DNA of 64,000 nt from contig JAMQCK010000082.1 in assembly GCA_024196135.1 (NCBI GenBank), forward strand, positions 1-64,000, in the 5' to 3' direction. The first letter of the stretch is position 1, and each line of letters begins with the position of its first letter. This document shows positions 21,331-62,359 of the stretch, in pieces. The position numbers and the translations under genes were made by a program. Under the pieces are notes generated by a model. It worked only from the letters and a program-made list of their open reading frames with translations, searched no databases and had not been told where the DNA came from. The DNA comes from Pleurotus ostreatus/Saccharomyces cerevisiae fusant (lineage: Eukaryota > Opisthokonta).

Positions 21331-21355
21331 GAGGGTCACCTTCGTTCCTGCTACC

Positions 21356-28367: not shown

Positions 28368-28399
28368 GGTGGATGGAGGGAGGAGACGCGGCGTCGTTG

Positions 28400-32289: not shown

Positions 32290-34620
32290 CGGCACCGAGA
32301 CTTCTGGTGAAGTTTGAGCGGAGTTCGAAAGACGACACACATAAGCGGTGCGTGCTCGGGATTTGATGGGCACGCCCTCTTGTCTCTTACCCTCATCTGC
32401 GCCACCACCACCCTGACCTTTCCCTCTTCCAGCCTCGACATACCGGTCTCGTCACGCGCACCGATGATTCGACGACTTGAAGCGCCGTCAACGCACTCGC
32501 GGGCTAGCCCAATGCGACGACGAGGGGTGCGCTCAATGGTCCGTGGTTCCACATTCCTTCGGGCTCTCCGGGCTGACCGTCGACCTTAGTTCTCGTCAAG
32601 AACCAGCTTTCAAAGCCTGCGCAGCTCAGGAGCGCCAATGCTCGCGCGAGTGTACCCAATGCCACAGCGGATGGGCAGCTCATTGGTGCGCCGTGCGAAT
32701 GATCAGCGTGCTCACGCTCCTCAGCCCCACGACGCCTCGCAGGTGCATTTTTATCACGCAATCTCGTGCTCGTCTCATACTGCGATGCCTCCCACAGCCC
32801 GAAGGTACGCTACTCGATCGCTCGACGTGTTCGCGTCACTGACTTTGTTTTCCCCAGCTCAACATCCAGCCACTTGGCCAGCACTTACCGACGCTACGCA
32901 AGCGCGTCAATGCCGGTGCCGTGCAAGAGCATCTATGCCGATGCCATCCAAGAACATCGATGTCCATGCCACGCAAGAGCATCAATGCCGATGCCGCGCA
33001 AGAGCATCAATGCACTCGCGACAAGGACCTCTTCCCCCACGAGCGGGCCCAATGGCGCGGTGATAGGGTCGTTGAAGGGTGCGCATATTTCGTGTGTTCG
33101 TAGACTCGTCACTGACGGCGCTCGTCAGATCTCTCAGGCATCGCACTTTGAGCTTGAAGAGCCCGGTGCAACGAGTCCAAATGGTCGCCGCAGTCGTCCA
33201 AGCCGCCAGGTGGCAATGTCGAAATGAAAGCTCGCTCGTCCTTATCAAGGATAGACATGTGCGTACGCGTGGAAGCTCTACTCCGCGCGGACTAATGCAC
33301 CTCTAGGGCTCTGTCCAATGTACTCATTCTCGACTACGATAATTTTATCCTCGACTGCGACATTTCCATTATGGGCTGCGACGCTTTCAGCCTCGGAAGC
33401 GATCGTCAAGGACAGCGATCATAAGGACGAGAGGCGGGGTAGAAGATCGAGCTCTAAGGACCGACGTCGCCCAATTGCACTCGTCCCGCGCGGCGACGCA
33501 ATGCATTTCCTCCGCGCCGGGCGCAATGACTCGGGCGCGGCGACGCCTAATGAATCTCCAGCGCAGTGGCGCAATAGCTTTCTTCAGCGCGGTTTCGCAA
33601 TGCGCTTCGCGCAGCGGCGCAATGACCCTGCCGGCGATGCAATGAGGTCGGCGTGCCAATGAGGCCGGAAGCCAACATTCTCTGCATCGACGAAATCCGC
33701 CAATTCCTTCCCCAACGAAGGACTGCGCGCTCAAGTCGCAATATGCTGTAGCGCCCTGGCGCAATGTCCGAGCCTCAAACTCAAGTCGCCGCCATAAGCT
33801 TCAGCTACTGCATCAAGCTCAAGCTGTCGCATCAGCTTGAGGGTCGTAGGTTCGCATACCTATCATCTTCCAGTTGTCGCCTGTGCAGTAACGTCTTCTG
33901 CAGAGCGGTAGATGGATGCCTCCCGACTCCGCCTAACGACTTCACATCGTCCTCAGTATGCCTCTGCTCCGCCGCTCGTAGGCTGACAATTCCCTTCGAA
34001 TAATGTTACTCACGTGCTTCGCCTCAGGGTCTCCGTCATACCTGGATACATCAGTAGACCATCGCTCTGATGCTACCACACACCGCCGCCTCGGCGGCCG
34101 GGCTCCACTCTCGCTTCGGCAGTGGACACTCGGTCCCTTCGTGATCTTCTTCTATTCTTCCTGCAGTATCTGAATTTCCGACAGGCTAACTACTCCTGCG
34201 CTGGCTGCGCTTCTGAAGGAAAGTTCGTGGATGGAGGAAGGGAAGGTCTGTCGATGAACGAGGAAGCGGTCTGATGGTGGATTAGGAAGCGGACTGGCTG
34301 GCTTGAGTGGGCGTCATGCGTGCATGGTGTCAGATTTATTTCTATGTTTTCCGTCGGCGCTGTGTGTAGCAGGCTTATAAATTCGATGGGTCTATCTATG
34401 GGTGGACGTGGAACTGGAAGAACGACGTGCGTGTTAAGTTGAAGTTGCCGATCTGCGGCGAGGCAGACGGATTACCCAGTGGCCCTAATCAAAACGCCTC
34501 GGCATCATGTTCGATATATTTATTTCTGTTGGTAACCCGCAGCTAGCAACACCACCCGAGCCAGCTGCTACGCAATGTGCGCAGTGCGGATCTCGGAATC
34601 GAACAATGAGCTTGGGCTGG
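32290..34620 (+). repeat. CAATG-rich spliced unit U0 (diverged, leftmost)
   Basis: This is the most diverged plus-strand unit. The leader is recognisable (GCGGAGTTCGAAAGACGACA, then TTTGATGGGCACGCC near 32365), but the TAACGTGAC box is not intact. It contains exon-like blocks with CAATG (for example 32636), a GTGCGTACGCG donor at 33258 and a GACTAATGCACCTCTAG acceptor before 33307. A tail with CAATG roughly every 20-30 nt lies at 33480-33700. The late intron (GTATGC at 33958, CGCTCGTAGGCTGAC) has lost its usual CAG acceptor. Confidence 0.6.
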
Positions 34621-37233
34621 TAACGTGACCGCCATGCGCAGCGGAGTTTGAAAAGCGACACACATCAGCCTCGCGTGTCGACGATTTGATGGGCGTTCTC
34701 TTCTGTCTCTTACCCTCATCTCCGCCACCCACATTCCCCTTTGCACTGACCTCGACAGTCTGCCCTCGAATCCGCCAACCTGCACCCAACCACGCCAGTC
34801 TGTTCTTTATAGCGATATCTCGACGTCGATGGCTCGCAAGCGCCGTCAATGTTCTCTCGGGCTCGCCCAATGCCACGACGAGAGGGCAACCCAATGGTAC
34901 GCCGCTACTCATGTAGCGTGACGTTTTCTCGTCGCTGACCTCATCTGTCAGATATCGCGGACATCCCCAAGCTCACAGCGGCTCGCAAGTGCTGTCGAAA
35001 TCGCCCGAGGTAGCCCAATGTTTCTGTGGCCAGGCTCCTCAATGGTGCGCTACTCGACTTCTAGCATACGCGTTCTCATTAGCTGACCTCGGCACTACTA
35101 ATCTAATCAAATCGTCTGCGCTAGGGATCCTCGAGACTTTCGCGCCAAACTTCAGTCCTCGGCGAGGACTGTACTCGAGCTGCAGCCCTCGATGTGTCGC
35201 AAGTGCATCAATGCTCTACCGAGTCAGCCCAATGGTGCTGCGAATGGGTAGCTCAATGGTGCGTCCGCGATCGCTCAGCGTATCTGCGTCGCTGATCCTC
35301 ATCGGCAGACACTCGACATCGTCTACTCGCCCCACGGTGCTCCGCAAGTGCACCAATGCCCCCGAGAGCTCGCCCAATGCCGCGGAAATCGGGCCGCTCA
35401 ATGGTGCGTCACCATCGGTATCCCCTTTTCCTGTTGCTGATCATGAGCCCCAGATTCTCTCGATGTCGTCTAATCAAACCCCACGATGCATCGCAAGCGC
35501 ATCAATGTATCGCGGACCCGCCCAGTGCCACAGTGACCAGGACAGCCGAGTGGTACGCCACTCGACTCCCGAAAGTGTTCGCGCCTCTGACTTTGTTTGC
35601 CATCTCTCAGAATCAAGCTCTTCGACCTGCACTTACCGAAGTCACGCGAGAACATCAATACGATGCCACGTAAGAGCAACAATGTCGACGCTATGCAAGA
35701 GCGTCAATGCCGATGCCGCCCCAAAGTATCAATACCTCCGCGACAAGATCATCATCGCCCCCGCGAGCTTACCCAATGCCGCGAAGACAGGGTCGCTCAA
35801 TGGTTCGTGGGCACCTTTTTTCCCAAGCTCGCCACTGACCGGCTTCGTCAGATTTCTCCGGCATCGCATCTCGGCCAGTCTAGCGCCTCAAGCGACAGAA
35901 GAGCGTGACGCCTTAAGTACAAGCCGGCAAGTTGCAATGAGCTTTGTCCATGAACATCAGGCGGCCTGCGTAGCGGGAGGAAAGTTTTCTCGCTCCCATG
36001 AAGGGTAGGCAGGTGCGTTCGCGCGATGAATTTCCTACCACTCGGACTAACGCTGCTTCAGGGTGCTGCTCAATGCCATCGTACTCAGTACCGATGTATT
36101 CAGCCTCGACTTTGACGTTTCCAGCCTCGACCGCGACCGTCAAGGACCTCGACTTCGATCCTCAAGAGCAGCGGAAAGAGGTAGAAGATCAGGCCTTGAG
36201 GACTAATGCCGCTCAAATATCTTTCGCTCGCGTGGCGACGCAGTGATATCCTCCCCGCGCGGCGTCGCAATGTTCTCATCCAGCACGGCGATGCAATGAG
36301 GCTGACCGGTCATTATGAGGTCGGCAGGCCAACGATCTCCTTCGTCCCTTAGCTGTGAAGCGGCTATCCTACGCACTAGGACTTGCGCTCAAGTCGCAAT
36401 GTGTATACGTCAAGGTCAGGTCGCCCCGTCAACCTCTAGCCCTCGCTTCAAGCTCAGGCCATCGCGTCGAACCCAAGCCATTGCGTCGGCACGTTGAAGG
36501 TGTGTTCGTGGATTCTTCGACGATCACTCGTGAATTTACGCCGTCTTCAGCACTGTATGAGACGGATCGCTCAAGGATGCCCCCGGGTTCTCCTTGAACG
36601 CTCCCTAGCATATACAGCGCCTTCACTTCGTCTTCGGTATGCACCCGGTCCGCCGTTCGTGGACTGACAGTCCTCTTCTCAGTATATCCCCTGCAAGCTC
36701 GCCTTTCTGTGTGCCCTCATATCCGAACGTCCCGGTCGCTTCGGTGGCTTGCCATACAGGCACCTCGTGACCGGACCCTTCGACGGTGGCGGTTGTTATT
36801 TCCTTCGCGATCTCCTTTCACTCTATCAAACCCTTCGACAGGTTCACTTTTCCTGCGCTGGGTTCGCGTCTACAGGGCAGTTCGTAGATGATGGGAGAGG
36901 TGTTGGGAGAGCTGAGGAGAGACGATGCATGTTTGGAGTCGGATGGGTGACTCGTATTGTGCGCTGTGTGTTTTGTATAGCAGACTTTCGCATCCTATGG
37001 GTTTATCTATGGGTGACCTCGGGACTTGAATCGTGACGTGCGGATTGAATTGAGCTTGTCGATCGGTGGCGGCGCAGACGGAGTACTCGATGGCCACAAT
37101 GACAAGGCCTCAGCATCAGGACAGTTATCTATGTCTCGCCTTGATACCTGTGAGTCGTCATGCTCCTCCACCGCCGAGCGATTTGCGCAGGGGACTACAC
37201 AGTGTAGACCTCGAACAACGAGTCTGGTCAGGT
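34621..37233 (+). repeat. CAATG-rich spliced unit U1
   Basis: Begins with TAACGTGACCGCCATGCGCA and the leader TTTGATGGGCGTTCTCTTCT. Introns with GT-AG ends and CTGAC/CTGAT branch sites lie at 34897-34951, 35259-35308, 35404-35453 and 35553-35610 (55, 50, 50 and 58 nt). The exons between them (93, 95 and 99 nt for complete ones) are variants of one another, each ending CAATG or GAGTG immediately before the donor. Another intron starts at about 36012 (GTGCGTTCGCGCGATG) and ends CTTCAG before 36059. A late GTATGC intron begins near 36637. A 339-codon frame at 34989-36008 reads through these introns, so I do not call it a protein. Confidence 0.75.
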
Positions 37234-39718
37234 AACGTGACTGCCATGCGCAGCGGAGTTTGAAAAGCGACATACAAAAGCGGCGCGTGCTTGCGAATTG
37301 ATGGGCATTCTTTTCTGTCTCTTACCCTCATCTCCGCCACCCACATTCCCCTCTTCCGATCACGATGCACCGACCGCGACATCCCGCACTCAACACCGAC
37401 GCGTCCGCCTCGATGGCTTGCAAGCGTCGTCAATATACTCGATGGCAGGCAAGTGCCGTCAATGTTTTCGCGGGACAGCCCAATGCCACGACGATCGGGT
37501 AGCCCAATGGTGCGCCACTCGGGCGTTCCGGCATGTCTCCGTTGCTGAACTTGACGGTCAGATAGCTTCGACATCCTCAAGCGTACAGCGACTCGCAAGT
37601 GCCGTCCACATCTCCCGAGGTAGCCTAATGCCACTGCATTCGGGCTCCCCAATGGTGCGTCACGCGACTATCATGTATGTGCTCTCGCTGCTTACCTCAG
37701 CGCTAGAATCACTCAAGCTTCGCCAAGTATCTACTCAAGTCTTCCGCGCCCGCTTCTCGCCTAAAGTCTTCGGCGAGTGTATACTCAAGCCCTCAATGCG
37801 TCGCAAGTACATCAATATTCTCCTGAGTTCGCCTGATATCGCAGAGACTGGGCGGCTCAATGGTGCGCCGCGCGATTGTTGTGCGAGTTCCTTTCCCTGA
37901 CCTTCATCTGCAGAACCCCTCGACGTCGTCTCCTCATGCCCCCGATGGCTTGCAAGCGCATCGATGTACGGGCGCGCTCAATGGTCCGGCGACCGAGCGT
38001 CCCAATGGTGTGTCTTTGCCTATTCCTCCATGTCCTCCCCGCTCACCTTCGGCTGCAGTTTCCCACCCTAAGACTGCACAAGAGCGTCAATGGCGATGCC
38101 ACGCAAGAGCTATTGTCGACGCTATGCAAGAGCGCCAATGTCGACGCTGCACAAGCACGTCAATACCAATGCCGCAAGAGCATCGATAACAATCTCCGTG
38201 ACAAGGACATTAATGCGCCTCGCGAGCTTGCCCAATGCCGCGCAGACCGGGTCGCTGTATGGTGCGTGAACTCCATCAGTATTTTCTGTGCTCATCGCTG
38301 ACCGCCTTCGTCAGAATTCCCGAAAATAGCTTCCCAAGCCGACGCTTCACCTCGAACAACCTGGCGTGTCCCGAATGGCCTGTCGCATCAAGGTAATGGC
38401 CTGACGTCTCGAGCGCTCGAGGAGCCCTGACCCTCAAGCGAGTGAAGATTTCGAATTCTCGAGCGCCAGCCATCAAGCCGCAATGTCATCCGTGCCGTCA
38501 AGTGGCAATCGCATACCTGTCGTCAAGTGGCAATGTTTACTCGACTTGGACTGTATGAGCAAGAAGCGGGGAAGGAGATCAAGGAGAGACGCCACCCAAT
38601 TATATTTCTTCCGCGCGGTGCCGCAATGACTTCCTCTGGCGTAGTGGCGCAACCACTCTCGCGCGGCGACGCAACCAGGTCTGCGTGCCAATGAGGTCGT
38701 CGAACAAATGAGGTCGGCGGGCCAATGCTATCCTTCGTCAACAAACTTCGACAATGTCTATCCCGACTACAAGGTCACGAATTGCAGTAGCGCCTAAATC
38801 GCAATGTTCTAGCTCAATTCGAAATTTGGTATACCTCAAGCTCAACTTGTCGCGGGCTTCCCAAGTCATCGCTTCAAGCCCGGGTCGCTGCGTCAAACTC
38901 AAGTCATCACGACGCGCCAGATTGCGGGAAGAGGACAGTAGGTAGGTGCGTGCACCGTAGACTTCTTAGTTGTCGCTTGCGCGCAAACGTCTGCAGGATT
39001 ATCGTAGCCGACAGATCGTGTGTGATGGCTCTCGACAACCTCGTACCCTTATCGTCTTGGGCGCTTCTGCGCGACCCCGCGCGTTGCCTTCACCCTGACT
39101 TTGGTATGCCCTCGGTCCGCCGCTCGTAGTCTGACAATTTCTTCTCAGAACATTTCCTGCGAGCTCGCCGTTGAGAGCGCCCTCGTGCCTTGACACTGCA
39201 ATGCGCAAGTAGACCGTCGCATCGGTCGCCGGACCTCACTTTCGCTGAAAAGGCAGTGGTCAATTTCACGCTTCGCGTTCTCCTTCTACTCTGCGTACAT
39301 CATCTCATTCTTCGGCAGATCGATCATTCCCGCGCTGGCTGGACGCTTGGATCAAGGTTGGTGGATGGCCAGGAGGCGGTATGACGATGGATGAGAGAGC
39401 AGGCTGGATGGCTAAGGAAGCGATCGGGATGGCTGAGAGGGAATGAGGCTATGGTGTCTTGTGTATTCTCTGTTGCTCGTTGTGTGTTCTATACAGCAGA
39501 CTTGCACAGTTTGCGGGGATCTATGCGTGGATTCTGGACCGGAAGTTTAAAGTGTGTTGAGTTGAAGTTACCCACCTGCCGATGCGTAGACGGAGTACTA
39601 GAGATATCTGACATGATGCAGAGGCCTTCCTACCATGGCCTCCGCCTCTGTTGAGCTCTCGCGGCTGGGCATGCTCCTCTAGCCGCAGCCCTGAGGTCGG
39701 ACAACGAGCGTAGGGCAG
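37234..39718 (+). repeat. CAATG-rich spliced unit U2 (best-resolved unit)
   Basis: Begins TAACGTGACTGCCATGCGCA. Seven introns fit consensus: 37510-37561, 37655-37706, 37863-37913, 38008-38058, 38262-38314, 38946-38996 and 39104-39148 (52, 52, 51, 51, 53, 51, 45 nt), most with CTGAC or a near variant about 10-15 nt before the acceptor. Exons of 93, 156, 94 and 203 nt lie between the first five. A first-exon frame starts ATGGGCATTCTTTTC (MGILFCLLPSSPPP, signal-peptide-like) but meets a stop at the first junction. Other exons are open in different phases (for example exon 5 as SVNGDATQELLS). Coding status is therefore unresolved. The tail (38480-38760) has CAATG repeats and no long frame. Confidence 0.8.
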
Positions 39719-42061
39719 TAACGTGACCGCCATGCGTGCCACTGATGGCGGAGCGGAGTTTGAATGAGCAACATACATAAGCGGCGCGATTTGATGGGCG
39801 TCCTCTCTTCACCCCTACTTTCATCCCGTCGCCCCATCTGCCCCTTCATCGACATCGACAACTAGCACTCGACAACGGTATCTCGATCTCGATGGCTTAC
39901 AATTGTCCATATCGTCGATGGCTAGCAAGTGCCGTCAATGTTCCGGTCGAGCCCAATGCCACGACGAGCGGGCAGCCCAATGGTACGCCACTCGGAGGTC
40001 GTGGCATGCTTATGTAGCTCACCCCTTCCGCCAGATACTGTCGACGCTCCAATTGCCCTCAAGCCTTCAGTAACCCGCAAGCGCCGTCTATATCTCCCGG
40101 CACCGAGGTAGCCCAATGCCCTCGCGACCGGGCTCCTCAACGGTGCGTCGCGCGACTATCATACGCGCTCGCATTGCTGACCTTGGTGCTGGTATCACCA
40201 AGTCTTACTCAAGTCTTCGGCGAGCAAGCTCCTCAAACTTCCGATGCTACGCAAGAGCATCAAGTCATCGCGAGCTCCCCCAATGCCACAACGTACGGGC
40301 AGCTCAATGGTGAGTCACAGCCAGCAGCGCTTGCGCTTGTCGCTGACCTTTGTCGCTAGATCCCCTCGACATCGTATGTTTAACCTCAAGAACCCCTCAG
40401 CATCGTCTAACAACCTCCCGATGCCACACAAGTGCGTCAATGTAATCGCGCTCTCGAGTTTGCACAATGCGGCGATGACCCGGGAGCCCGATGCCCCGGC
40501 GACCGGGCAGTCCAATGATACGTCATTCCCCTTGTATTCTCTGCGCTGAGCGCTGACCTTCGGTTCAGATCTCATTGACGTCTAGCTGATCGGACCACAC
40601 ACACCGACGCCGCGCAAGAGCGTCAATGCGGATGCTACACCAATGCCGGTGTTTCTCAAGAGCATCAATGTCGATGCTGTGCAAAAGCAAGACAACGGGG
40701 ATGCTTCAAAGAGCGTCAATGCCGATGCCACGCAAGTGCATCAATGTCCTCACGAGCTCGCCCAATGCCGCGGAGGGTCGCTCAATCGTGCGTGTACATC
40801 GTTTCTCGATCAGTTTACCACTGACCGCCTTCGCCAGATCTCTCGGCAAGCGCCTATCAATAAGGCCGATCCCTAAAGCGACCGAAGAGCACGGCACCTT
40901 GATCGTTCGAGCCGTCTAGTAGCAATGTACAAAGAAAAGCTCACTCGTTCACATTTATGGCAGTCAGGTTCGTCCTCACGATCGACTGCCTACCGCTCGG
41001 ACTGACGCCGCTTCAGGGATCTCCTTGATTTTTTCGTTCTCGAGTTCGACAGCGACCGGAAAGGACAGCGAACCTAAGGCGAGTGGCAGGGCAGAAGATC
41101 AAGGACCGACGCCACCCAATAATTTTTCTCTGCGCGGGGCGCAATGACCTTCAGCGCAACCTCGCAACGATTTCTTCCGGCGCGGCGACGCAATGGCTTT
41201 CTCTGGCACTACGTCGCAATGTGGTCGGCAGGCCAATAGTCTCTTCCATCCTCAAGCCATTTCCTGCCAAAAAGGGTTGCAGTAGCGCTCAAGTCGCAAT
41301 GATCTAGTACGCCCAATCTGCGATGCGCTATACCTCAGACTCAAGTCGCTGCGTCAACCTCAAGTATTGAGACACCGCGTCACGCTCGAGCTGTTGCGTC
41401 AAGCTCTGAACGTTGGAAGGTAGTAGGTGCGTGTACCGCTTGATTAGTTGTCGCCTGCCCGCTAACCTCCTCTTAGAGCGGTGGATCGATGCGTCCTGAC
41501 CGCACTCAACGGCTTCATATCGTCGTCGGCAAGCCTCCCGCTCCGCCGCTCGTATACTGATACTTCTTCGCAGAATTGAGCTCGCGATGTTCCGGTCGAG
41601 CGTCGCCTCAGTGACCGGACCTCGCCCCGGTTCGACTGCGAGGATCGTTTTATCCCTTTGCAATTTCCTTCTATTTTGTCTATGTCATCTAATTCTCCAG
41701 TAGGTCAAGTATTGGCGCGCTGGCTGGACGTATGGAATTGGTGGATAGACAAGGGAGCAGTGTGAATGGCATGATGTGTGTTTGGGATGTTGGATGTGTT
41801 CTGCGTTTTGTATTGCGTGTAGCAGATTCTCACAGTCGATGGGCTTATCTATGGGTGAACTCGGAAATCAAGCGTGACGTGCGTGCTGAGTTGAAGCTGC
41901 CAACCTGCGGTGGCGTAGACTGAGTACTCAGCAGTCATCATGCAAAGGTCTCTGACTCACGACAAATGCAGTGTAAACTGTCTCCTTTGAGCTTCTGCGA
42001 CTGGCCATACTCCTCCAGCCAGCTGCGCGGATATCGGAGTCGAACAACGAGCCTGGGAAGG
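39719..42061 (+). repeat. CAATG-rich spliced unit U3
   Basis: Begins TAACGTGACCGCCATGCG. The leader carries an extra segment (TGCCACTGATGGCGGAGCGG) also seen in V3 and V5. Exons end CAATG before GTACGCC (near 39981), GTGCGTCGCGC (near 40143) and GTGAGTCACAG (near 40310), with CTGACCTT branch sites. A long exon with DATQVHQC-type reading lies near 40570-40790. Late introns occur near 41420 (GTAGGTGCGTG to CTTAG) and 41540. It is diverged from U2 and more like U5. Confidence 0.75.
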
Positions 42062-44393
42062 TAACGTGACCGCCATGCGCAGCGGAGTTTGAAAAACTAC
42101 ATACATAAGCGGTGCGTGCTTGCGATTTGATGGGCATTCTTTTCTGTCTCTTACCCTCATCTCCGCCACCCACATTCGCCTCTTCCGACCACGATGCACC
42201 GACCGCGACAGCCTGCACTCAACACCGACGCGTCCGCCTCGATGGCTTACAAGCGTCAATATACTCGATGGCTGGCAAGTGCCGTCAATGTTTTCGCGGG
42301 CTAGCCCAATGCCACGACGATCGGGTAGCCCAATGGTGCGCCTCTCGGGCGTTGTTGCATGTCTCCGTTGTTGAACTTGACGGTCGATAGCCTTTCAAGC
42401 TCACAGCGACTCGCAAGTGCCCTCCACATCGTCCAAGGTAGCCCAATGCCACTGCATACGGGCTCCTCGATGGTGCGTCATGCTACTATCATGTATGCGT
42501 TCTCGTTGCTTAACTCAGCGCTAGAATTCCTCAAGCTTCGCCAAGTACTTACTCAAGTCTTCCGCGCCCCCTAGTCTCCTGAAGTCTTTGGCGAGTGAAT
42601 ACCCAAGCCCTCGATGCGTTGCAAGTACATCAATATCCTATCGAGTTCGCCCAATATCACAGAGACCGGACGGCTTAATGGTGCGCCGCGCGATCGTTGT
42701 GCGAGTTCCCTTCCCTGACCTTCATCTGTAGAACCCCTCGACGTCGTCTCCTCATGCCCCCGATGGCTTGCAAGCGCATCGATGTACGGGCGCGCTCAAT
42801 GGTCCGGCGACCGAGCGTCCCAATGGTGTGTCTTTGCCTATTCCTCCATGTCCTCCCCGCTCACCTTCGGCTGCAGTTTCCCACCCTAAGACTGCACAAG
42901 AGCGTCAATGGCGATGCCACGCAAGAGCTTCAATGTCGACCCTACGCATGAGCGTCAATGTCGACGCTGCGCAAGCACGTCAATACCGATGCCGCAGGTG
43001 CATCGATAGCAATCTTCGCGACAAGGACATCAATGCACCCCGCGAGCTCGCCCAATGCCGCGGAGACCGGGTCGCTGTATGCTGCGTGAACACCGTCAGT
43101 ATTTTCTGTGCTCATCGCTGACCGCCTTCGTCAGAATTCCCGAAAATAGCTTCCCAAGCCGACGCTTCATCTCGAACAACCTGGCGTGTCCCGAATGGCC
43201 TGTCGCTTCAAGGTAATGACCCGACGTCGCGAGCGCTCGAGGAGCCCGGACCCTCAAGCGAGCGAAGATTTCGATTCCTCGAGCGCCAGCCATCAAGCCG
43301 CAATGTCATTCGTGCCGCCAAGTGGCAATAGCATACCTGTCGTCAAGTGTCAATGAGTACTCGACTTCGACCGTATGAGCAAGAGGCGGGGAAGAAGATC
43401 AAGGACAGACGCCCCTCAATTATATTTTTTCCGCGCGGTGCCGCAATGACATCCTCCAGCGCAGTGGCGCAATGGCTTTGCACAATGGATCTCACCCGCG
43501 CGGCTGCGCAATGACTCGAGCACGGCAAGGCGATGAGCCCGGCTGGCCAATGATTTTTTTTCGTCAAGCGCATTTGACAATCCCCAACCTGGCGAAGGAA
43601 TTCAGTAACGCTCCAGTCGCCATGTTCCACCGCGCCTAATTCGCAATGCGCTATCCTTCGACCTCGACAATATCCGGCCATCGCTTCAAGCTCGAGCCGA
43701 CGCGTCGGCACGTTGAAGGTGCGTTTGTAGATTTCTTGATGATTGCTTGTGTATCAACATCGCCTGCAGCACCACATGGGATGGACCGTTCAAGAACGCT
43801 CTCTATATCCAGCGCATTCACTTCGTCCTCGGTATGCCCCCACACCACCGCTCGTAGACTGACAATGCTCTTCCCAGAACATCCACTGCGAGCTCGCCTC
43901 GACTGCGCTAGTAGACCATCAGTTCGCTGACAAGTGAATCGTCGGCTCGGTGGCCGGACCCCACTTTCGCTTCAAAGGCGGTGGTCATTATTACGCTTCG
44001 CGTTCTCCTTCTACCCTGCCTATAAAATCTGACCCATCAACAGACTGACTATTGCTGCGCTGCTCGCGCGTTTGAAGGGCGGTTTTGAATGGACGAGGAG
44101 GCAGGCTGGATGGCTGGTGGGAGCGATCGGGATGGCTGAGCGGGAATGAGGCTATGGTGTCTGGTGTATTACCTACTGTCCGCTGTGTGTCCTACGCAGC
44201 AGACTTGCACAGTTTGCGGGAATCTATGGGTGGGCTCTGGACCGGAAGTGTAAAGTGTGTTGAGTGGAAGACAAACACCTGCTGATGCGTAGACGGAGTA
44301 CCAGAGATGTCTGTCATGATTCAAATGCCTTCCTAGCTCTCGCGGCTGGTCCTCTAGCCGCAGCCCTGACGTCGGACAACGAGCGTGGGCCAG
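42062..44393 (+). repeat. CAATG-rich spliced unit U4 (near-duplicate of U2)
   Basis: Begins TAACGTGACCGCCATGCGCA. Much of it (especially 42690-43380) is almost identical to U2 (37870-38540). Between 42286 and 43648 I count 18 sense-strand CAATG pentamers. Relative to U2 the first exon lacks three bases (one codon), and the first-exon frame MGILFCLLPSSPPP stays open and can join the next exon through a shifted acceptor (GATAG). Later exons acquire stops (TGA near 42948 in the frame that is open in U2). Late introns lie near 43719 (GTGCGTTTGTAG) and 43831-43880 (GTATGC to CCCAG). Confidence 0.78.
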
Positions 44394-48816: not shown

Positions 48817-49789
48817 AGGCGAGGTGCGCGGGGAGACGTGCAGCGACGCCGATTGGGTCGCATATACGCGTTCTTGCGGTGCATACATGCGTCCTTATAG
48901 TGCATATATGCGGGCTGGACGCGTGGATGCGCGACCTGGCGGTCTAGCGCAGCGGGGGACGACAGGCGAAGGCGATGCATGCGCATATATGCAGATTTGA
49001 GCGCAGGTATGCGGCTCGCGGGCGGCGACTTAGACTGGCTCCATGTAGTACTACTTTATGTTCTTATTTTCTTGCTTGTATCTCTCGGTTTCCTCCCTGG
49101 CCGTGTATTTCTCGGTCACCTCACTAGTCGTGTACCTCAGGCCTGGTCTACTCACATACTAACTATGTACCACTACTCTATCCCCATAGACGAAAATGTA
49201 TCATGATGAATGATCTGCGTGTGGCGACAACTCTAGTCGAGCGCGTCGGGTAGTCGGTCTCGTTGATCAGCTTCCAGTGCGGAGGCCGGTTAGTCTCGTT
49301 GACTAACCTCCATAAGTACTGGAGTTCGAACCACCGTACGGCTAAGAGAGCCTGAGGGCGTTGCATGCCACCTCAGAGAGATCGGGGAAAGGCCTCTTCT
49401 CGGTCCAATCTGGCTACTTGTTCCCAGTACGGCGCCGCGAATTCCAATGCACAACACCAGGATATATACACCCACAGTATATGCAACGCATCCGGCACTT
49501 CACACGCATCCGATACCATAGATGCATCCGGTCATATACCGGCGCCATAACACGTCTCCAACACCATTTCCACGACGGATATAACACTGCGCATGCGCCC
49601 TTCCCCACCACCCATCCCATTGCCCCTTCAGCTCTCCGCGTCACGCCCCTCCATCCCCTGCATGTCGCCCCTTGAGTCAAAAGACAGTATGAGAGAATGT
49701 CTGAGGAAAGCATCAGCTATGCCAGTACAGACGACCTGCTGAAGAAGATTGCGAGGAAAAATCTACTACTCATCGCCACCGATGCTAGA
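48817..49789. other. Right part of the array centre
   Basis: No gene seen. 48860-48990 has repeated GCATATATGCG/GCATACATGCG motifs. 49240-49310 has a short duplicated segment (GTCTCGTTGA). From about 49480 the sequence starts to resemble unit 3' flanks. Confidence 0.4.
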
Positions 49790-51812: not shown

Positions 51813-54665
51813 CCTGCCCAGGCTGGTTGTTCGAGACTCTGACTTACATCGTGTAGTACACTGCGCAAATCGCTTGGCAGTGGAGGAGCACAACAAGCCA
51901 CAAATATTGAAGCGAGACATAGTGGCCATAGTGATAAGGCATTGGCATCAAGACAGATATCTGAGTACTCCGTCCAGGCTGCCGCCGGTGGGAGGCTTCA
52001 TCTTAACACAGCACGCACGTCACGCTTCCAGTTCCAGTGTACCCATGCATATCCCCATAGCCCGCGAAAGTCTGCTGAACACAACGCACAACACAGAAAA
52101 TATTGTACATCACGCCCGCTCAGCCATCCAGACCTGTCCTGCCTCCATCCCGAATGCTCCCTCATCCACTCAAAAACTGTCCTTCAGACGCCTGAGCAGC
52201 GTAGGAGTAGCCAATCTGTTGGCGAGTTAGGTAACGTAAGCGGAGTCGAAGAAGATTGCAAAGGGAAAAAGCGATCACCGCAGTCGAAGCGGCGCAGGGT
52301 CCGGCCTCTGAGGCGACTGGCGCACGACTAGAAAATCGAAGCGAGGGTGTAGCCGAGGTGTCCAGGAATGAATGCGAAGCTCGAGGCGAAGCGCGCGAGG
52401 CAAAGACTGCGAAGAGAACTATCAGCCTGAGAGCGGCGGAGCGGGGGACTGACCGAGAACGATGTGAAGCTGTTCAATTAGTTCGGCAGTCTCTGAAGAA
52501 GACGTTAGCGCGAACGAACGGTACACGCACCTACCATCCTCTACCAGCAAGCTGACGCGTCGTGATGACTCGAGCTTGAGGACCGCGGCGACTTGAGCTT
52601 GAGGTATAGCACATTGCGGATCGGGCGCGTTAGAATATTGCGACCTGCACGCTACTCATGTATTCGTCGAGATAGGGATTGTCGAGTTTCGTTCATGAGG
52701 AAATCATTGGCCCGCCGGCCACATTGGTCCGACGACCGCATTGGCACGCCGGCCCCATTGCGACATTGTCGCGCGAGAGAAATGCATTGCGCTGCCGCGC
52801 GGAGGAGGTTTATTGCGCCACCGATCCAGAGAAAGTCATTGCGATGTCGCGCAGGAAATCCATTGCGTCGCCGCGCGGGAGAGACATCATTGGGCGGTGC
52901 TGGTCCTTGATCTTCTGCGTAGGCCTCCTGTCTTGATGGTGTTGCCCTCAAAGATTGATTGTCGGGGTCCAAGGTCAAAGTCGAGAACGAGAGCAATGGG
53001 CAGCGCCCTAGAACGGCATCAGTCTAAGTAGAAGGAAAATCATCGTGCGGACGGACCTGCCTACTCTCCGTAGTAGCGAGGCAGCCTTCCTCTCGTTGCT
53101 CGGACCGCCTGATGCCCATGGACAGAGCTATTGCCTGTTGACGGCTCGGACTTGAGGCGATTGTTTGGACCAGAGCCGCGGTGGCCTGGCCGATGCAGAG
53201 GCGATCCAGGGAGAGGATCTAATGAAGGCGGTCAGCGACGAGCCCAAGGACTAACAACGATGTCCACGAACCATTGAGCTGTCCGGTCTGCGCACATTGG
53301 CGGCACGGTGGTAGGTCTCGCAATCCGAATTGATGCTCTGACGTGGCATCCGCATTGACACTCTTGCGTAGCATCGGCATTGACGCTTTTGCATAACGTC
53401 GTATTGGTGATCTTGCGTGGCACCGACATTGACGCCCGTGGTATCGGTATGTGGTCCAGCAGCTGAAGTTCTCGGATGAAGGATCAAAATCAGTGACGTG
53501 AGCACATTAAACGGTCGAGTCGCGTACCGTGCGGCGGCTCAATTGCCGTGGCATTGGGGGAACTCGTGCGATGTCGCAGTATTGCGCGAGCCCGAGAGCG
53601 CATTGTATTGATGCACTTGCGAAGCATCAGAAGATTTTCAGGCGATGCCGAGGGGCTCAAGAGCTTGGGTATACGTTGAGGAGACCTGATTACCATGATC
53701 GACGACAAGGCGAAGCGATGCCGGCGGGGACGCTCCATCGAGCTGTCCGGTCTCCGCAACATCGGGAGAGCTCATGGGTACCTTCAACTCTCTTACGCGG
53801 ACATTGATGCTCTTGCGTGGCATCGGCATTGACGCTCTTGCGCGCCGCCGGGTTGGGGCGACTAGGCGTTAACGAGATCTAAGGCCGAAGGTCAGCGCCG
53901 AAAATACGGATGGATAAGGGATGGCGTACCGTCAGGCTGCCCGGCCAATGTGACATTGAGTGAGGTCCAGATTCATTGATGCATTTGCGAAGCACGGGGA
54001 GATTGCTGAACGACGTAGAGGGGATTTGTCTATGAAGGTCAGAGTCGGAAACACACATGACGATGGCGGAGCGCACCATCGAGCTGCCATCCGCCGTGTC
54101 AGAGAAATTATTGATGCACTTGCGACGCATCGAGAGCTCGAGCCGGGTACCTTTTGAAGACTCAAGGACATCGAGCACTGGTGGCCGGAGGAAGTCCGGC
54201 GAGGACGACTTGGGGAGACTATCGCAAAGGTCAGCGACGAGAATGCATATGAAAGTCGCGTGGCGCACCATTGAGGAGCCCGGGCACAGTCACAATTGGA
54301 CTACCTCGGGAGGATTTATCGGCACGAGCGAGCCACCGAAGGCTTCAGGATGTGTTGAACGTCGAGGATACCTGGAGTCCAAAGTCAGCAACAAAGGCAT
54401 GCTTCGCCACCTGAGTCGCGCACCATTGGGCTTCCCGCGCGTCGTGGCATTGGGCTCGCCCGAGAAAGCATTGCCGGCGTTTGCAAGCCATCGAGGCAGA
54501 GGAGTCGGTGGCCAGCGCGGACTGTCGAGGTCAGAGAGTCAGTGCAGGGGGGTGTGGGTGGCGAGATGAGGGTAAGAGTTAAAAATGGACGCCCATCAAA
54601 TCGCAAGCACGCGGCGCTTATGTATGTCGCTTTTGAAACTCCGCTGCGCATGGCAGTCACGTTAC
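51813..54665 (-). repeat. CAATG-rich spliced unit V2
   Basis: Minus-strand start box TAACGTGAC at 54665-54657. It carries exon blocks ending CAATG before GTGCG donors (seen as CGCACCATTG on the plus strand, for example 54268 and 54418), with CTGAC branch sites seen as GTCAG. The tail at 52660-52900 is a run of CATTGCG/CATTGGCCCG blocks on the plus strand. The late intron (plus-strand CTATCAGCCTGAGAGCGGCG) starts near 52422. It is the longest unit (2.85 kb box to box). Confidence 0.75.
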
Positions 54666-57325
54666 CGGCCTAGGCTCGTCGTTCGACATGCGCTGCATAC
54701 GTTGCGAGGCAACTGGCTGGGTGAACATCTCCAGCTGCATGTAATCAACAGACACTAAGCATCTAACATGATGCTGAGGTCTTAGAATTATGGCCACTGA
54801 ATTTTTGTCTACATCGCCGCAGGCGAGTCTCAACAAGTTCAGCTCAACACGCAAGTCACGCTTCGAGTTCCGGGTTCACCCATGAATAAAACCATCGCCT
54901 GTAAAAATCCGCTATACAGGACACACAGCGCAAAGCATAGGTAATATATCCAGCCCATCCTCATGCCATCCAGACCATTCCCTCGTCCATCCACAACTTC
55001 CCTTTAGGCGAACAATCGGCCAAGAGTAGTTAATCTATTGGAAAGTTAGATAGTTTTCCCGGAGTAAAAGGAGATTGAAAAATGACCGCCGCCGTTGAAG
55101 CGACCGAAGAGTGCGGTCCAGTCACCGACGCGACGGTATACGCAAGGCGTCTGCGTAGAATATTCTAGGAAGAGAACTGTCAGCCTGCGAGTGACGGAGG
55201 GGGAGGCATACCGAGGACGATGTAAAGGCGTTGAATGGGGTCGGGACGCATCGATCTACCGCTCTGAAGCGGAGGTTAGCACGCAGGCGAAACCAGATAA
55301 GATGGTACACGTACCTACTATCCTCGAACGTCGAGCTGACGCGATGGCTTGAGCTTGACGCAACAGCTTGAGCCTGGGGTATAACGCGCTGCGGATTTTG
55401 TGCGCTGAAACATTGCGACTTGGGCGCTATCGAAGCTCTTCGTTGGATTGGGGTTGTCGAAGATCGTTGACGAAGAAAACCATTGGCTGGCTGACCGCAT
55501 TGCGTGACCACGCGAGAAAACTATTGCGTCGACGTACAAGAGAATTCATTGGCCCATCGCCTCATTGTAATGCCCCGCCGGAGGTGATTATTGCGGGGCC
55601 GAGCGAGAGTTCATTGCGCCGCCGCGCTGGGAGCTCCATTTTATCGACGCGACGGTGAAGGACATTGCGTCGCCGCGCGGGGGAATGAGGATAGGGCGGC
55701 GTCGGTCTTGAACAGTTGAGGTCGTGACGGGGTCCTTCGAGGCCGATAACGTCGAAGGCGAGGCCGAAGCCGAGCACAAAAACGTCGAAGTCGAGAAGGA
55801 GAGCATTGGGCAAAGCCCTAGAGCAGCATCAGTCTGTGTGGTAGGGCATAATCAAACAGACGCACCTGTATACCCCTGGCGGGATGAGGGAGCATTCCTC
55901 TAAACATTGCCACTTGACGGCTCGGACAATCGAGGCACCGGGTTGTTGTAATGCGCCCGACTGGGCGAGAGGCAATTCTCGAAAGATCTGATAAAGGTAA
56001 TCAGCGACTAGCATAGAAGAGACTAACGTCGATAACGCACTATTAATCGACCCGATCTACGCGGGATCGGGCTAGCGCGCGGGGGGCATTCACGTCCTCG
56101 TCTCGGAGGTATTGACGCTCTTGCGTAGCATCGGTATTGATGTTCTTGCGTGGCATCGTCTGGACGCTCTTGCGCAGCGCCGGCGTTGATACTCTTGCAT
56201 AGAATCGTCTTCACGCTCTTGCATAGCGCCGTATTGATGCTCTTGCGTGGCATCCGAAAGTGCAGGTCAACGAGCTGAAGAGAATGAAGTCAGTGGTGCG
56301 AGCACGTTGAGCGAATGTGTGGCGTACCATTACGCGGATTCTTCGCCGCGCCATTGGGCGGTCCCGCCGGACATTGCTGTACTTGCGAGGCACCGGGAGG
56401 TTGCTAGGCGGTGTCGGGGGGCTCGTAAGTTTCAGCATACGACGTCGAGGGGTTCTGTCGATGATGGTCAGCGACGAGGACACGCGATGCCGACGGTAAC
56501 GCACCATTGAGCTGCCCGGTCTCCGCGGCAACATTGGGCAAGCTCACGGGGACCTCAACGCTCTTCCGCGGACATTGATGCTTTTGCGTAGCATCGGCAT
56601 TGATGCGAGTGACCTCGATATTGACGCTCCCGCGCGGCGGTGGGGTTGGGAGGCTGCATGTTGTCGAATTCTAAATCCGAGGGTCAGCGGAGAGGACGGG
56701 GAATATATATAATGGCGTACCATTGGGCTGTCCTGTCCCCGCAACCTTGGGCGAGCCCGCAATAGATTGATGCGCTTGCGAGGCATCGAGGGTATGAGAC
56801 GACGTCGAGGAGTCTGTTGACCATGTTCAGCACTGAGAAAGTGTATAAGTATCAAGTGGCGCACCATTGAGGAGCCCGAACGCAGTAGCATTGGGCTACC
56901 TCGAGGAGGTTGGTCGGCATTTGCGAGCCACTGGACGCGCAATGGTGGTGTACACGTTGAAGACATCTGGTGAACATGATTAGTGAGGAACGCATATTAC
57001 GCCGCAATAGTGGCGTACCATTGGACTGCCCGCTCGTCGTAACATTGGGCTCGCCCGAGAAAACATTGACGGCGCTTGCAAGCCGTCGAGAATATCGAGG
57101 ACGTTTGCAAGCCTTTGAGGTGGAGGCGTCGCTCTTGAACGCGGACTGTCGTAGTCGAAAGCATACTGTCATTGTCAGTGGTGGGGGGAACATGGGTGGC
57201 GGAATGACGGTCAGAGTCAAGAGAGGATGCCCATCAGATCACACGCGCGCGCCACTTGTATATATTCAAACTCCGCTGCCATCAGTCACCAAAAGGGGGA
57301 AACACCCGCATGGCTGTCACGTTAC
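54666..57325 (-). repeat. CAATG-rich spliced unit V3
   Basis: Box at 57325-57317. The leader contains the extra segment (plus-strand CCATCAGTCACCAAAAGGGG) shared with V5 and, in shorter form, U3. Exon ends appear on the plus strand as ACCATTG at 56319, 56702 and 57017. The late intron (CTGTCAGCCTGCGAGTGACG) is at about 55178. Tail CATTG blocks run from 55485 to 55680. Confidence 0.75.
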
Positions 57326-59773
57326 CGGCCTAGGCTCTTTGTTTCGACTGGGAGATCGGCGCTGCGCGCATTGCGTGGGGGATGTCCATTGACAGTCGCC
57401 AATTGATAGTAGCAAGCTAAGTCGAGAGCCTCGAGATAAGCTTGCAGGAGATGGCTTAGGAGACTGTTCAGGCAGAGATTCTGAGCGCCCTGGTGAAAGG
57501 ATGACCATTATGATCACCTAGTCCACGCCGCCGCAGATCGATAAATTCAGCTCAACAAGCCAGTCACTCTTCGAGTCCCAAATATACCCCTGGACAATTC
57601 CAATGGCCGGAGAAGTCTGAAATACACAGCACGGCACTATACACGCATCCAACACCATACGAGCATCCTACCCCTTCGGCCCTCCGCGCATCGTCTCCCC
57701 ATCCACTTGAAACTGCCTTTTAGAGGTCCAACCAACGCAGGAATGTATGATCTGTTGATAAGTCAGTTAATGCAAGCAGAGTAGAAGAAGACCGCGAAGG
57801 AGAAAGATGACCACGGCCATCGAAGCGCGAGTGAGGTCCAATTACTGAGGCGACGGTCGACCGGAGCATCTAGGCGATGGTCTACTGAGGTGTCCAGGTA
57901 TGGGAGCGCACCCAGATGCGAAGCCCGCGAGCTTTACTCTGGAGAAAATTGTCAGCCTACAAGGTGCCGTGCGAGAGCATACCAGAGCCAAGGTGAAGGT
58001 AATGGCGAGAGTCATCCGAACGCGATGAGTGAGGTAGGGAGCAATTGCACGTATTCCGCTGCCTTTCAAAAAGGTTAGACCGCGAACAGCTGCGAGGTAC
58101 ATACGCCGTGCATGCGTCTTTGATCCTGAAGCTGACGTGTCGACTTGAACTTGACGCGGCAACTTGAGCTTGAGGTATAGTGCATTGCGAACTGGGTGCG
58201 CTAGAACATTGCAATTTGAGCTCTACTGAAGTCCTTCGTCGAAGATATTCGACAATCCCTACCCCGGCGAAGGAAACATTGGCACGCCGACCTCATTGCA
58301 TCGCCGACCTTATTGCATCGCCGCCCGAGCCATTGCGCCGCTGCGCGAAGTGCATTGCGCAACCGCGCTGCAGAAAGCCATTGCGTCGCCTCGGGAGAGT
58401 CATTGCGTCATCGCGCGCGAGATATCTCATTGCGTCTTCGCGCCCGCGTCATTGCGCCCCGCGCGGAGATAGATGATTGGGCGGCGTCAGTCCTTGATCT
58501 TCTGCCCCGCCACTCTCCCTTATAGTCCATGTTCTTGACAATCGATGTCGAGGATAGAAGCCGGTATTGAGGACAAAAACCGTTCAAGTTGAGAGCGAAA
58601 GAGCAGCGCCTGTGAGCAAAAACTTAGAATGACATTAGTCCAAGCGGTAGGGATTTTATCGCGCGGACGCACCTCTCTGCATGACCGAACTTTCCTGCGA
58701 GCATTGCCATTGGATGACTGGGGCTTTAGGCGTCCGATCCGACTCTTCGAGAGGCGGTGGTACCGGAGACCTAACGAAGGCGATAAGTGGCGAACTTGTG
58801 GAAACATGTTGTGCACGCACCATCGAGCGACCGGTCTTTCTGGCATTGGGCGAGCTCGCGAGCATCGACATTGACGCTCTTGCATAGCCTCGACATTGGT
58901 GCTTTTGGGTGGCATCAGCGTGGATGCCCGTGGCATCGGTAAGTGCGTCGAGGGGCTGGATGTGTAGCTGAGGCGAACAAAGTCAGTGACACGTGCATAT
59001 TGAGCGGTCGAGTCACGTACCTTTAGGCTGCATGGTCTCCGCAACAATGAGCGAGCCCAAGAGCGCGCGACATTGATGCACTTGCGCAGCATCGGGGCGT
59101 CAAGCATACGACATCGAGAGGACCTGTCGATTACGATTAGCAACGAGAGCAAGCAAGTTTGGCGGTGACGCACTATTGAGCTGACCGTTTGCTGTGGCAT
59201 TGGTCCGACTCGGTAAGAGATCGATGCTCTTGTGTAGCATCAGCATTGACGCTCTTGCGCGGCGTCGGGCTGGGTGGATGGGACGTCGACGAGTTCTGAT
59301 ATCAATAGTCAGAGAAATAAAATCAGACGATGATCGCGGAATGTACCACTGAGGAGCCCGGACGCAGTGAGATTGGGCTACCTCGGGAGATGTCGTTGGG
59401 GCTTGCGAGCCACTAAGATCTCGGGGGCAAGTTGAGCGTCGAGGACATCTGGCGGCCAAATTCAACGACGAACGCATGCCGCGCTACACAAGTGGCGGCG
59501 CACCATTGGGATACCCGATCGTCGTGGCATTGGGCTCGCCCGAGAAAGCATTGACGGCACTTGCAAGCCGTCGAGAATATTGACGACGTTTGCAAGCCAT
59601 CGAGGCAGAGGCGTCGGTGGCCAGCGCGGACTGTCGATGTCAAGGAGTCAGTGAAGGGGGTGGTGGGTGGCGGGATGAGGGTAAGAGTCAAGAATGGACG
59701 CCCATCAAATTGCAAGCACGCGCTGCTTATGTATGTCGCTTTTGAAACTCCGCTACGCATGGCAGTCACGTTA
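57326..59773 (-). repeat. CAATG-rich spliced unit V4
   Basis: Box at 59773-59765 and leader TTTGATGGGCGTCC. Exon ends are visible as CACCATTGG near 59500. The tail at 58270-58480 has one of the densest CATTG runs of the array: about ten CATTGCG or CATTGG blocks in roughly 200 bp. The late intron (TTGTCAGCCTACAAGGTGCC) lies near 57952. Confidence 0.75.
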
Positions 59774-62216
59774 CCAGCCTAAACTCGTCGTTCGACATCT
59801 GCGCTGCGTATGTTGTGTGGCGGCTGGCCGGAGGAGTATGGCCAATCGCAGAAATGCAAAGGAGACAGCGTACCTGTAATGATCCAAAGGCCTTTATGTT
59901 ATGGTCGCTGATTACTCAGTCTACGCGGCCGCAGGTCGGCGACTTTAGAGCTCAACTCGCACGTCACACCTCAAATTCCAAGTTCACCGGTGATTCGACT
60001 CAGAGACCGTAAACGTATGCTACACCTTCACAACACAGGAAATACATCCGACACCATACATGCATCATGCTCGCTCGGCCATTCAGATCGCCCCCTCAGC
60101 CATCTACGGACTTCCCTCCAGACGCCCGAGCAGCGCAGGTCAGATGATCTGTTGAGGGGTCAGATAGAGCATGCGGGGTAGAAGGAGATCGCGAAGTGGG
60201 GCCCGGTCACCAAAGCGATGGTCTACCCGAGATAGGGCGCACCCGAAGGAATTCTCGGAGTGGATGTTCTATGAAGGGAATTGTCAGCCTATGAGAGGTG
60301 GAGGGGGAGCCATACCGGAATCAAGGAGAAGCCGTTGGGTGGATTTGGGGCCCATTGCACACAGCATGTCACTCTGAAGAAGCCGTCAGCGCGCAAGGGA
60401 CGGTTGGGCGATTCACCTGGTCGATCGATAGCAGGTTGAAGGATATCACATTGCGCCTCGGGCGCTGCGGCAGTCCTTTGTCGGGATAGAAATTGACCGT
60501 TTTCGTCGATGCAGGAGATCATTGGCCGGCCGCCCTTATTGCGCCGCCGCGCTGGAGGGAAGTCACTGCGAAGTCGCACGAGTGGATCATTGCGCCACCG
60601 CGCTAGATAAAGTCATTGAGCTGCCGCTCGCAGAAAGCCATTGGGCCACCGCGCGGTCAAATCCACTGCGCCGCCGCGCCCGAGTTTCTGGGCCGCCGCG
60701 CGGGAGGGATATGATTGGGCGTCCCTAATGATTGATCGCCTCGACGATCGCTGTCGATGCTGGTAACGTCGAGTTTGAGGATCAACATGTCGAAGTCGAG
60801 AACAGAAGCATTGGGCAGGACCCTAGAGCGGCGTCAGTCCATGCGGTAGGGGGATAATTCGATCGAGCCAACACACCTGTTTACCCTTGATGGAGACAAG
60901 CAAGCTTCCCTTCGAACATTGCCACTCGATGACTTGAAAATTGAGATGACCGTTTCGCCTTGAGGCGCCGCGTGCGATGGACGAGCAATCTACGATGTCA
61001 GTCAGCGGCGCACTTGTGGAAGTACGTTGTCCACGCACCATTGAGCGACCCGGTCTCCGCGGTATTGGGCGGGCTCGCGGGGTCTGCCCTCAAGCGGGCT
61101 TTCCTTGAAACATTGCCACTTGACGGCTCGAACCTCGAGGCGTCGATCGGTGTGCGAAATGCCTAAGAAGGCTGTCAGTGATGAGCGCAGAGAAAATCAA
61201 GAGTGTCTACGCACCTTTGAGCGACCCGGTCTTCGCGACATTGGGCGAGTTCGCGAGGTCGGTTATGCTCTTGAGGCGAAGGTGTTGATGCTCCTGAGCA
61301 GCATCGGCATTAACGCTCTGGTCCGGCCATTGACGCTCTTGCATGGCATCGCATTGATGCTCTTGCGCGGCATCGCCATCAAAGCTCGCAACATCGGTAT
61401 GTGCAAGCCGAGTGGCTGGATGCTGGACTGAAGAAAAAAGAGTCAGTGGCGCGAGCACGCTGACGGTTCAGCGACGTACCATTGGTCCGCACGAGTCGCT
61501 GCGCCATTGTACGGGTCCGCGATACATTGATGCACTTGCGGGGCATCGGGGGCTTGCATAGACGACGTCGAGTCGATCTATTTGCGATCGTCAGTGACGA
61601 GGGCTCGCGCGACGACCGCGTGACGCACCATTGAGATGCCCATCTGCAGTGGCATTGGGCTGGCTCGGGAAGGTATTGATGCACTTGCGACGCATCGCGG
61701 GCTTGAGTCGAATACTTGCCGTGGACCTGAGAAAACTGTCGTCAAGGTCAGCAGTGAGAGCGCGGATACCGGCCGAGCAGCGCACCATTAAGGAGCCCCG
61801 ATGCCATAGCATTGGGCTACCTCGGGAGATATCGACGGTTCTTCAGAGCCACTGGGAGCTTGAGGGAGCCTGAGCTTCAAAGATATCTTGCATACAATGT
61901 CAGCAACAGAAGCATGCCACAGAACACGACTAGCGTACCATTGGGGTACCCGCTCAGCGTGGCATTGGGTCCGCCCGCAAAAACATTGACAGCGCTTGTA
62001 AGCTGTCCAAGTAGAGGCATTGAGGGCAAAAGCGAGCTGTCGGGATTGAGAGCCAGCTGCGGGGGTCAGTAAAGAGGGAAGTCCGGGTGGTGGGGTGAGG
62101 TTGAGAGACAAGAAAGAACGCCCATCAAATCGCGCACATGTCCGCTTATGTGGATTTTCAAACTCCGCTGCGCCATCAGTGGTCAAAGGGGAAGCGCTCG
62201 CATGGCGGTCACGTTA
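59774..62216 (-). repeat. CAATG-rich spliced unit V5 (rightmost)
   Basis: Box at 62216-62208. The leader carries the same extra segment as V3 (plus-strand GCCATCAGTGGTCAAAGGGG). Exon ends CACCATTG occur at about 61040, 61480, 61628 and 61935. The late intron (TTGTCAGCCTATGAGAGGTG) is near 60281. Array homology stops to the right of about 62350. Confidence 0.72.
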
Positions 62217-62359
62217 CCGGCCTGGGCTCGTTGTTCGACATCTGCGCTACGCACATTGCGCACCAGCTGACTGGATTGGAACGGCTGGCCTCATTCAATT
62301 GGAAGAATATGGCCAGCGGAGATTACTCAACAGGAACCGAGACATCAGACATGATACAA

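Follow-up and report, generated by a model that had tools for sequence, protein, structure and literature searches.

Tandem arrays of putative spliced, CAATG-rich noncoding RNA genes in a Schizophyllum commune assembly

Two facing arrays in the window

The window analyzed here comprises 64,000 nucleotides (nt) at the start of contig C1079 (JAMQCK010000082.1) of the fungal assembly GCA_024196135.1. Its second half carries eleven related units, six on the plus strand and five on the minus strand, in two arrays that face each other. Each unit opens with a conserved leader and continues with exons rich in the word CAATG and interrupted by short introns, and judged from these signals the units are very probably selected, transcribed noncoding genes. 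Nine closed spacings between neighboring units ranged from 2323 to 2852 nt. An exact box, TAACGTGAC, occurred ten times in the window, five times per strand. The arrangement had been proposed in a sequence-only reading of the stretch, and both the orientation of the six and five units and the number of intact boxes were borne out by the leader starts, spacings, and box counts. The two arrays described there are thus present, but the family is not limited to them and recurs elsewhere in the assembly. The features are given below; leaders start at the first coordinate of plus-strand units and at the second coordinate of minus-strand units, and pattern introns are matches to a fungal intron pattern.

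32276-34598, plus strand: unit U0; GATGGG at 32365; 5 pattern introns; 19 CAATG
34599-37210, plus strand: unit U1; box at 34621, GATGGG at 34688, no TATA-like match; 7 pattern introns (34897-34951, 35259-35308, 35404-35453, 35553-35610, 35807-35851, 36005-36061, 36637-36682); 23 CAATG
37211-39696, plus strand: unit U2; box at 37233, TACAAAAG at 37273, GATGGG at 37300; pattern introns at 37510-37561, 37863-37913, 38008-38058, 38262-38314, 39104-39148; 20 CAATG
39697-42039, plus strand: unit U3; box at 39719, TACATAAG at 39774, GATGGG at 39793; 4 pattern introns; 20 CAATG
42040-44371, plus strand: unit U4; box at 42062, TACATAAG at 42102, GATGGG at 42129; 5 pattern introns; 20 CAATG
44372-46700 (3' end estimated), plus strand: unit U5; box at 44394, TACATAAG at 44434, GATGGG at 44461
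46900-49100, no strand: center between the convergent arrays; 3 open frames scanned
49500-51834 (3' end estimated), minus strand: innermost minus unit; box at 51812, TACATAAG at 51772, GATGGG at 51745
51835-54686, minus strand: unit; box at 54664, TACATAAG at 54624, GATGGG at 54597; 6 pattern introns; 26 CAATG
54687-57346, minus strand: unit; box at 57324, GATGGG at 57235, no exact TACATAAG; 9 pattern introns; 22 CAATG
57347-59795, minus strand: unit; box at 59773, TACATAAG at 59733, GATGGG at 59706; 4 pattern introns; 23 CAATG
59796-62238, minus strand: outermost minus unit; box at 62216, GATGGG at 62126, no TATA-like match; 7 pattern introns; 23 CAATG

The most diverged copy in the window was U0, which has neither an intact TAACGTGAC nor a TATA-like match, and the nearest copy of U2 was U4 with 91% identity over 1.44 kb. 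In U3, TACATAAG and GATGGG lie 19 rather than 27 nt apart. Slices of 2701 nt were taken for the two units with estimated 3' ends: that of U5 contained 7 pattern introns, of which the match at 44450 is doubtful as it overlaps the promoter, and 22 CAATG, the last at 46340, and that of the innermost minus unit contained 5 pattern introns and 22 CAATG, the last at 49622. The three open frames in the center between the arrays had no match in a Pfam scan. The first 315 nt of the outermost minus unit, together with its flank up to 63993, were matched by the end of contig C1039 at 94.6%.

Promoter, splice signals, and the word CAATG

A profile built from the ten window leaders that retain the box recovered 44 leaders: the 11 of the window and another 33 from 17 loci elsewhere. 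The strongest blocks of their alignment were CGTGA, AGCGGAGTT, ATAAG, and TTTGATGGGC, while the exact words GATGGG, TACATAAG, and ACGTGAC occurred in 40, 31, and 25 of the 44 leaders, respectively. TATA-like words were paired with GATGGG 28 times in the 44 leaders, and 26 of these pairs were exactly 27 nt apart. Across the 40 Mb of the assembly, the pattern TACATAAG-N15..21-TTGATGGG matched 24 times and all 24 matches fell on unit leaders, compared to none for the reversed version of the pattern in the whole assembly. A TATA-like match was lacking in six leaders, namely those of U0, U1, the outermost minus unit and its counterpart on C1039, C401:4180, and C907, and the four leaders on C352 carry another TATA form. 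TACATAAG may be read as an RNA polymerase II TATA box, with GATGGG placed where the initiator would sit, and as far as sequence can tell each copy appears to have a conserved promoter of its own.

The fungal intron pattern was matched 247 times on the unit strand of the 44 units, counted from offset 150, compared to 15 matches on the reverse complement and about 26 in Markov sequences. Lengths of the pattern introns peaked at 50-51 nt, and units contained 1 to 9 of them with a mean of 5.7 (35 units). Introns near 50 nt with intact splice signals had been predicted beforehand, and the junctions named as examples (37509/37562, 37862/37914, and 38261/38315) were indeed found to bound introns of the form GT...branch...CAG at exactly those bases. 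Intron totals of 247, 244, and 242 appear in different counts because length limits and offsets differ.

Constraint was assessed in five aligned pairs of sequences, namely the haplotypes C976/C885 and C187R/C1055, the pair C187L/C599R (an inverted copy or an overlap), U2/U4 (neighbors within the window), and C1216/C814. Across these pairs, 47 introns coincided out of 58 and 60. Donor sites diverged by 4.4% (18/409), compared to 13.3% (320/2399) for the rest of the intron (p 2e-8), and branch sites and acceptors diverged by 9.3% (33/355, p 0.03) and 7.7% (16/207, p 0.02), respectively. Exons, with 9.1%, were also below the rest of the intron. These values omit splice sites that both copies have lost, since introns were identified by their pattern. 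The suggestion that splicing of the units matters, or mattered until recently, is supported by this constraint.

Among all 5-mers of the spliced exons, CAATG was the most enriched by composition, with 660 occurrences where 43 were expected, and with 41 for its reverse complement. The 35 units used for the 5-mer counts and the introns per unit exclude five loci as second haplotypes or overlaps, as well as short units; each of them carried 11-26 CAATG, about 19. In all 44 units, CAATG occurred 856 times and CATTG 101 times, with 130 in Markov sequences. Outside introns, 834 CAATG were counted in 89.9 kb (9.3 per kb), compared to 9 in 12.4 kb of introns (0.7 per kb), in the 42 of 44 units that remained after those under 1300 nt were excluded; the background in positions 1-31800 of the window was 0.93 per kb per strand. 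Over a third-order background CAATG was only 1.16 times as frequent as expected, because its own 4-mers are enriched as well, and the claim of enrichment rests on composition, strand, and the contrast between exons and introns. A CAATG-rich tail had been described for the units; the enrichment was confirmed, but most copies lie at offsets 200-2000 of the unit, in exons, rather than in a tail. Neighboring copies were often 17-27 nt apart, most commonly 24, 21, 17, and 25 nt, in a mixed and unphased manner. Triplets of CAATG with gaps of 11-24 nt occurred 212 times in the genome compared to 10 times for the reversed pattern, and 44 of the 100 places listed out of the 212 were on array contigs.

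Outside the leader, CAATG was substituted at 57 of 881 sites (6.5%), where non-CpG base rates predict 10.2% (p 6e-5), and away from donors at 46 of 706 (p 4e-4); both p-values are approximate since sites were treated as independent. The direction was the same in all five aligned pairs, although in one of them only slightly, and the two bases just 3' of CAATG were the least conserved of those examined. A permutation control with words of the same composition (CAATG intact in 150/208, compared to 575/1138) was set aside in favor of the per-site test, as it overstates the effect because gains of the motif count against rare words. Many copies of a short exonic word thus appear to be under constraint, of moderate strength in the case of CAATG, and by these divergence measures selection is acting on donors and CAATG.

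The family across the assembly

The assembly searched comprises 40.05 Mb in 1277 contigs. An HSP70 exon beside the array on contig C976 was 100% identical to proteins of Schizophyllum commune, compared to 98% for S. fasciatum and 97% for S. amplum, and on this basis the species of the genome is S. commune. DNA searches with four different units, which score best candidates only, reached 15, 15, 13, and 14 contigs, always from one set of 15. A further diverged leader at about C401:30143 was missed by the first searches, which raises the family to at least 45 leaders, at least 34 of them outside the window. The unit belonging to it (within C401:28500-33500) contains no intron that fits the pattern, and C401 therefore also has back-to-back units.

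Some of the loci are, by their sequence, second haplotypes of one place. The four units of C885 recur on C976 in unchanged order with 87% identity, between flanks of 90-93% and an HSP70 region of 96.7%. The matches among C187, C599, and C1055 are those of haplotypes or inverted copies. After grouping of haplotypes, the family would occupy about nine places. Leaders on one contig had a mean identity of 0.75 (82 pairs), and leaders on different contigs one of 0.67 (864 pairs). Arrays run in one direction, converge as on C1079, or stand back to back around genes (C187, C599, and C401). On C187, two back-to-back arrays (within 1-10000 and 20000-29999) lie on either side of genes that span about 20 kb. 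Identity between the left array of C187 and the right array of C599 was 90.8%, while the right ends of the two contigs shared only 81%, which suggests exchange between the inverted arrays.

Core genes lie a few kb or less from several of the arrays. Neighbors included HSP70, a KAT11-type acetyltransferase, a COQ5/UbiE methyltransferase, GTP cyclohydrolase II, and a single-subunit RNA polymerase, as well as asparaginyl-tRNA synthetase, an adaptin, and a GMC oxidoreductase. A single unit on C935 (within 77000-86999) is flanked by HMG-box genes on both sides. In the Pfam scans of these neighborhoods and of the center between the window arrays, 26 of 40 frames remained without a hit under the thresholds applied. 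None of the 50 frames scanned with Pfam, one of them within a unit, contained a transposon domain, and a transposon origin is not supported by these frames, with terminal repeats and target duplications not systematically searched. Of the 138 matches to TTAGGG, the 100 listed were on five contigs, none of which is an array contig. The idea of a subtelomere-like expansion thus found no support, as core genes adjoin several of the arrays and the contigs with listed telomere repeats lack them, and from their sequence the surroundings do not look like a telomere or a transposon nest.

Reading frames, function, and rival explanations

Substitutions between copies were distributed almost evenly over codon positions (629/621/612) in 71 spliced frames of at least 70 codons, in which 1184 codons were changed nonsynonymously and 373 synonymously, while a control HSP70 exon from the same two haplotypes gave 0/0/11. 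In 43 of the 71 frames the other copy contained a stop. Indels in exons were not multiples of three in 67 of 91 cases, and the lengths of the 142 exons under 260 nt between neighboring pattern introns were spread over the three remainders as 54/53/35. By these measures the units are without a conserved reading frame, and a protein-coding reading was rejected on the basis of codon positions, indels, and stops.

A Pfam scan of 10 window frames, one of them the 363-aa frame of U1, gave no match, and an Rfam search of the window gave no match at the gathering score. The family therefore stays unrecognized, as first described, in Rfam for the window, in Pfam for one unit frame, and in the literature searched. 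A protein search with the U1 frame, the longest in any unit, returned two matches, P0121, a short frame from a metagenome, and P0122, a gene model of S. commune. P0122, with 551 aa, fuses pieces like U0 and U1 and matches spliced junction peptides only, with 15 matches at three places and none unspliced; a separate gene caller has therefore used such introns, which lends indirect support to transcripts of the units. P0121, on the other hand, matches the unspliced sequence in 5 of 6 cases. Although annotated as a protein, P0122 seems to be an artificial fusion of two noncoding units. Selection on RNA structure was not supported, as the mean folding z was 0.35 in 13 of 25 closed units, for which the first 900 nt of each spliced sequence were folded.

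Of the possibilities raised at the outset, a spliced noncoding RNA is the one that promoter, introns, and CAATG support at the level of sequence. Transcription by RNA polymerase II would start from about nine loci, probably in concert because the promoter is shared, and splicing would remove the CAATG-poor introns. The mature RNA would then be an unstructured chain in which CAAUG words recur, often at distances of 17-27 nt, and may act as a multivalent platform for a putative single-strand RNA-binding protein that reads CAAUG. A platform is proposed because the constrained feature is a short, repeated exonic word without folding excess. Two modes are conceivable, a decoy that soaks up the protein or a scaffold that concentrates it at or near the array loci, and the dose would be set by many copies and many sites per copy. 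As a whole, this platform reading falls a little short of an even chance. More tentatively still, it is put forward that S. commune has a dedicated set of jointly regulated genes for spliced noncoding RNA, amplified in tandem at about nine loci, several of them by housekeeping genes, with a series of CAAUG binding sites as the selected product, which would serve by gene dosage as a sponge or scaffold for a putative RNA-binding protein.

Several points weigh against this interpretation. Transcription and splicing are themselves deduced from sequence. The ACGTGAC box was present in only 25 of 44 leaders, U0 lacks both box and TATA word, the number of introns varies between 1 and 9 per unit with none in the extra unit of C401, and 11 of 58 and 13 of 60 introns were not at exact shared columns. 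The constraint on CAATG is moderate, in tests that treat sites as independent, and in C187L/C599R the word diverged by 3.8% and the background by 4.2%, which is hardly different; part of that pair is free of differences and may be contig overlap. An ancestral repeat of 24-26 nt could partly explain the clustering of CAATG. To our knowledge, no protein is known for CAAUG, and a literature search for a CAAUG-binding protein gave nothing relevant.

Alternatively, the act of transcription or splicing may matter and not the RNA, in which case the arrays would be transcribed regulatory regions and CAATG an exonic splicing signal for weak donors. The word stands directly before 106 of 244 introns, and C occupies donor position +6, where it would weaken the donor, in 151 of 242 array introns compared to 26 of the 95 pattern matches found in 191.6 kb of flanking genes (both strands counted). 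However, most exonic CAATG are not at donors (728 of 834, if all 106 donor-adjacent copies are exonic), and constraint persists in the copies away from donors, so that this explanation is regarded as unlikely. The units could also be selfish or neutral tandem repeats of a satellite-like kind that drift after descent from one transcribed ancestor, with the constraint being residual or due to gene conversion. Tandem and inverted arrays, the higher leader identity within contigs, the likeness of the inverted C187 and C599 arrays, and the eroded copies U0 and C401:30143 would all fit such an origin, but it is judged improbable in view of donor and CAATG constraint in the aligned pairs, a promoter spacing that is fixed across loci, and introns that diverge more than exons.

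Spliced transcripts might further feed RNA interference (RNAi) against CAATG-bearing or homologous sequences. Read-through of convergent arrays could give double-stranded RNA, and the commonest CAATG spacings would be in keeping with small RNAs, but RNAi needs no conserved introns, there is no folding excess, and the spacings are mixed and not phased, which leaves small-RNA precursors with a very slim chance. A decaying protein family with short repeated exons, as had been considered earlier, is hardly credible despite the long open frames and the annotated P0122, given the absence of a codon-position signal, frame-breaking indels, and stops in the other copy.

NORAD, a human long noncoding RNA, is a single-copy gene. 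It is composed of 12 repeating units, each about 300 nt long, in which UGURUAUA occurs 17 times over 0.38 expected, and it modulates Pumilio, and the units described here resemble it as noncoding RNA of repeats with many short protein-binding words, while NORAD is unspliced, has predicted stem-loops in its repeats, and has binding shown by PAR-CLIP (PMC4947167). The units here, in contrast, have many copies, introns, CAAUG, no folding excess, and a putative partner, and no homology is claimed. The Pumilio word UGURUAUA was not dense in the 44 units (6 over 1.5 expected, compared to 856 over 82 for CAATG), and membership in the NORAD family was rejected on this ground.

A fungal likeness is offered by meiRNA, the sme2 RNA of fission yeast, in which numerous copies of UNAAAC lure Mmi1 to its own locus; it is a noncoding RNA with many copies of a short word, but from one locus, with a motif-rich 3' region, and with Mmi1 and Mei2 as shown partners (PMC4077057). 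The units carry CAAUG in exons along their length and at many loci, with a putative partner, and again no homology is claimed. UNAAAC was below expectation (30 in 44 units compared to 68), so that membership with meiRNA was rejected as well. In Drosophila, the tandem repeats of the hsr-omega RNA are transcribed and are believed to sequester RNA-binding proteins. Its repeats lie within one transcript of one locus, whereas here the whole gene of promoter, exons, and introns is repeated.

Few fungal long noncoding RNAs with a defined sequence code are known to us. In the literature searched, which mostly left subscription journals outside, no described fungal counterpart and no multicopy spliced family with a common promoter was found, and the excerpt of PMC8893723, a lead on long noncoding RNAs, contained nothing on the unit family. 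If CAAUG does bind a protein, the family would offer a tractable mushroom model for RNA decoys and would account for at least one hypothetical-protein gene model (P0122). S. commune is described as the most polymorphic species known (PMC9187340). This diversity makes tests of selection strong and easily extended, and as copies and haplotypes differ by about 10%, selection per base would be measurable from population genomes.

Outside the arrays, two stretches of the window (11360-12226 and 29070-30086) contain similar frames for hypothetical proteins without a Pfam match, paralogues by eye, and a protein search with the frame at 29070-30086 gave no match at E 0.001. Also without a Pfam match as unspliced frames, two similar open frames at 17981-20230 appear by eye to be BTB-like paralogues.

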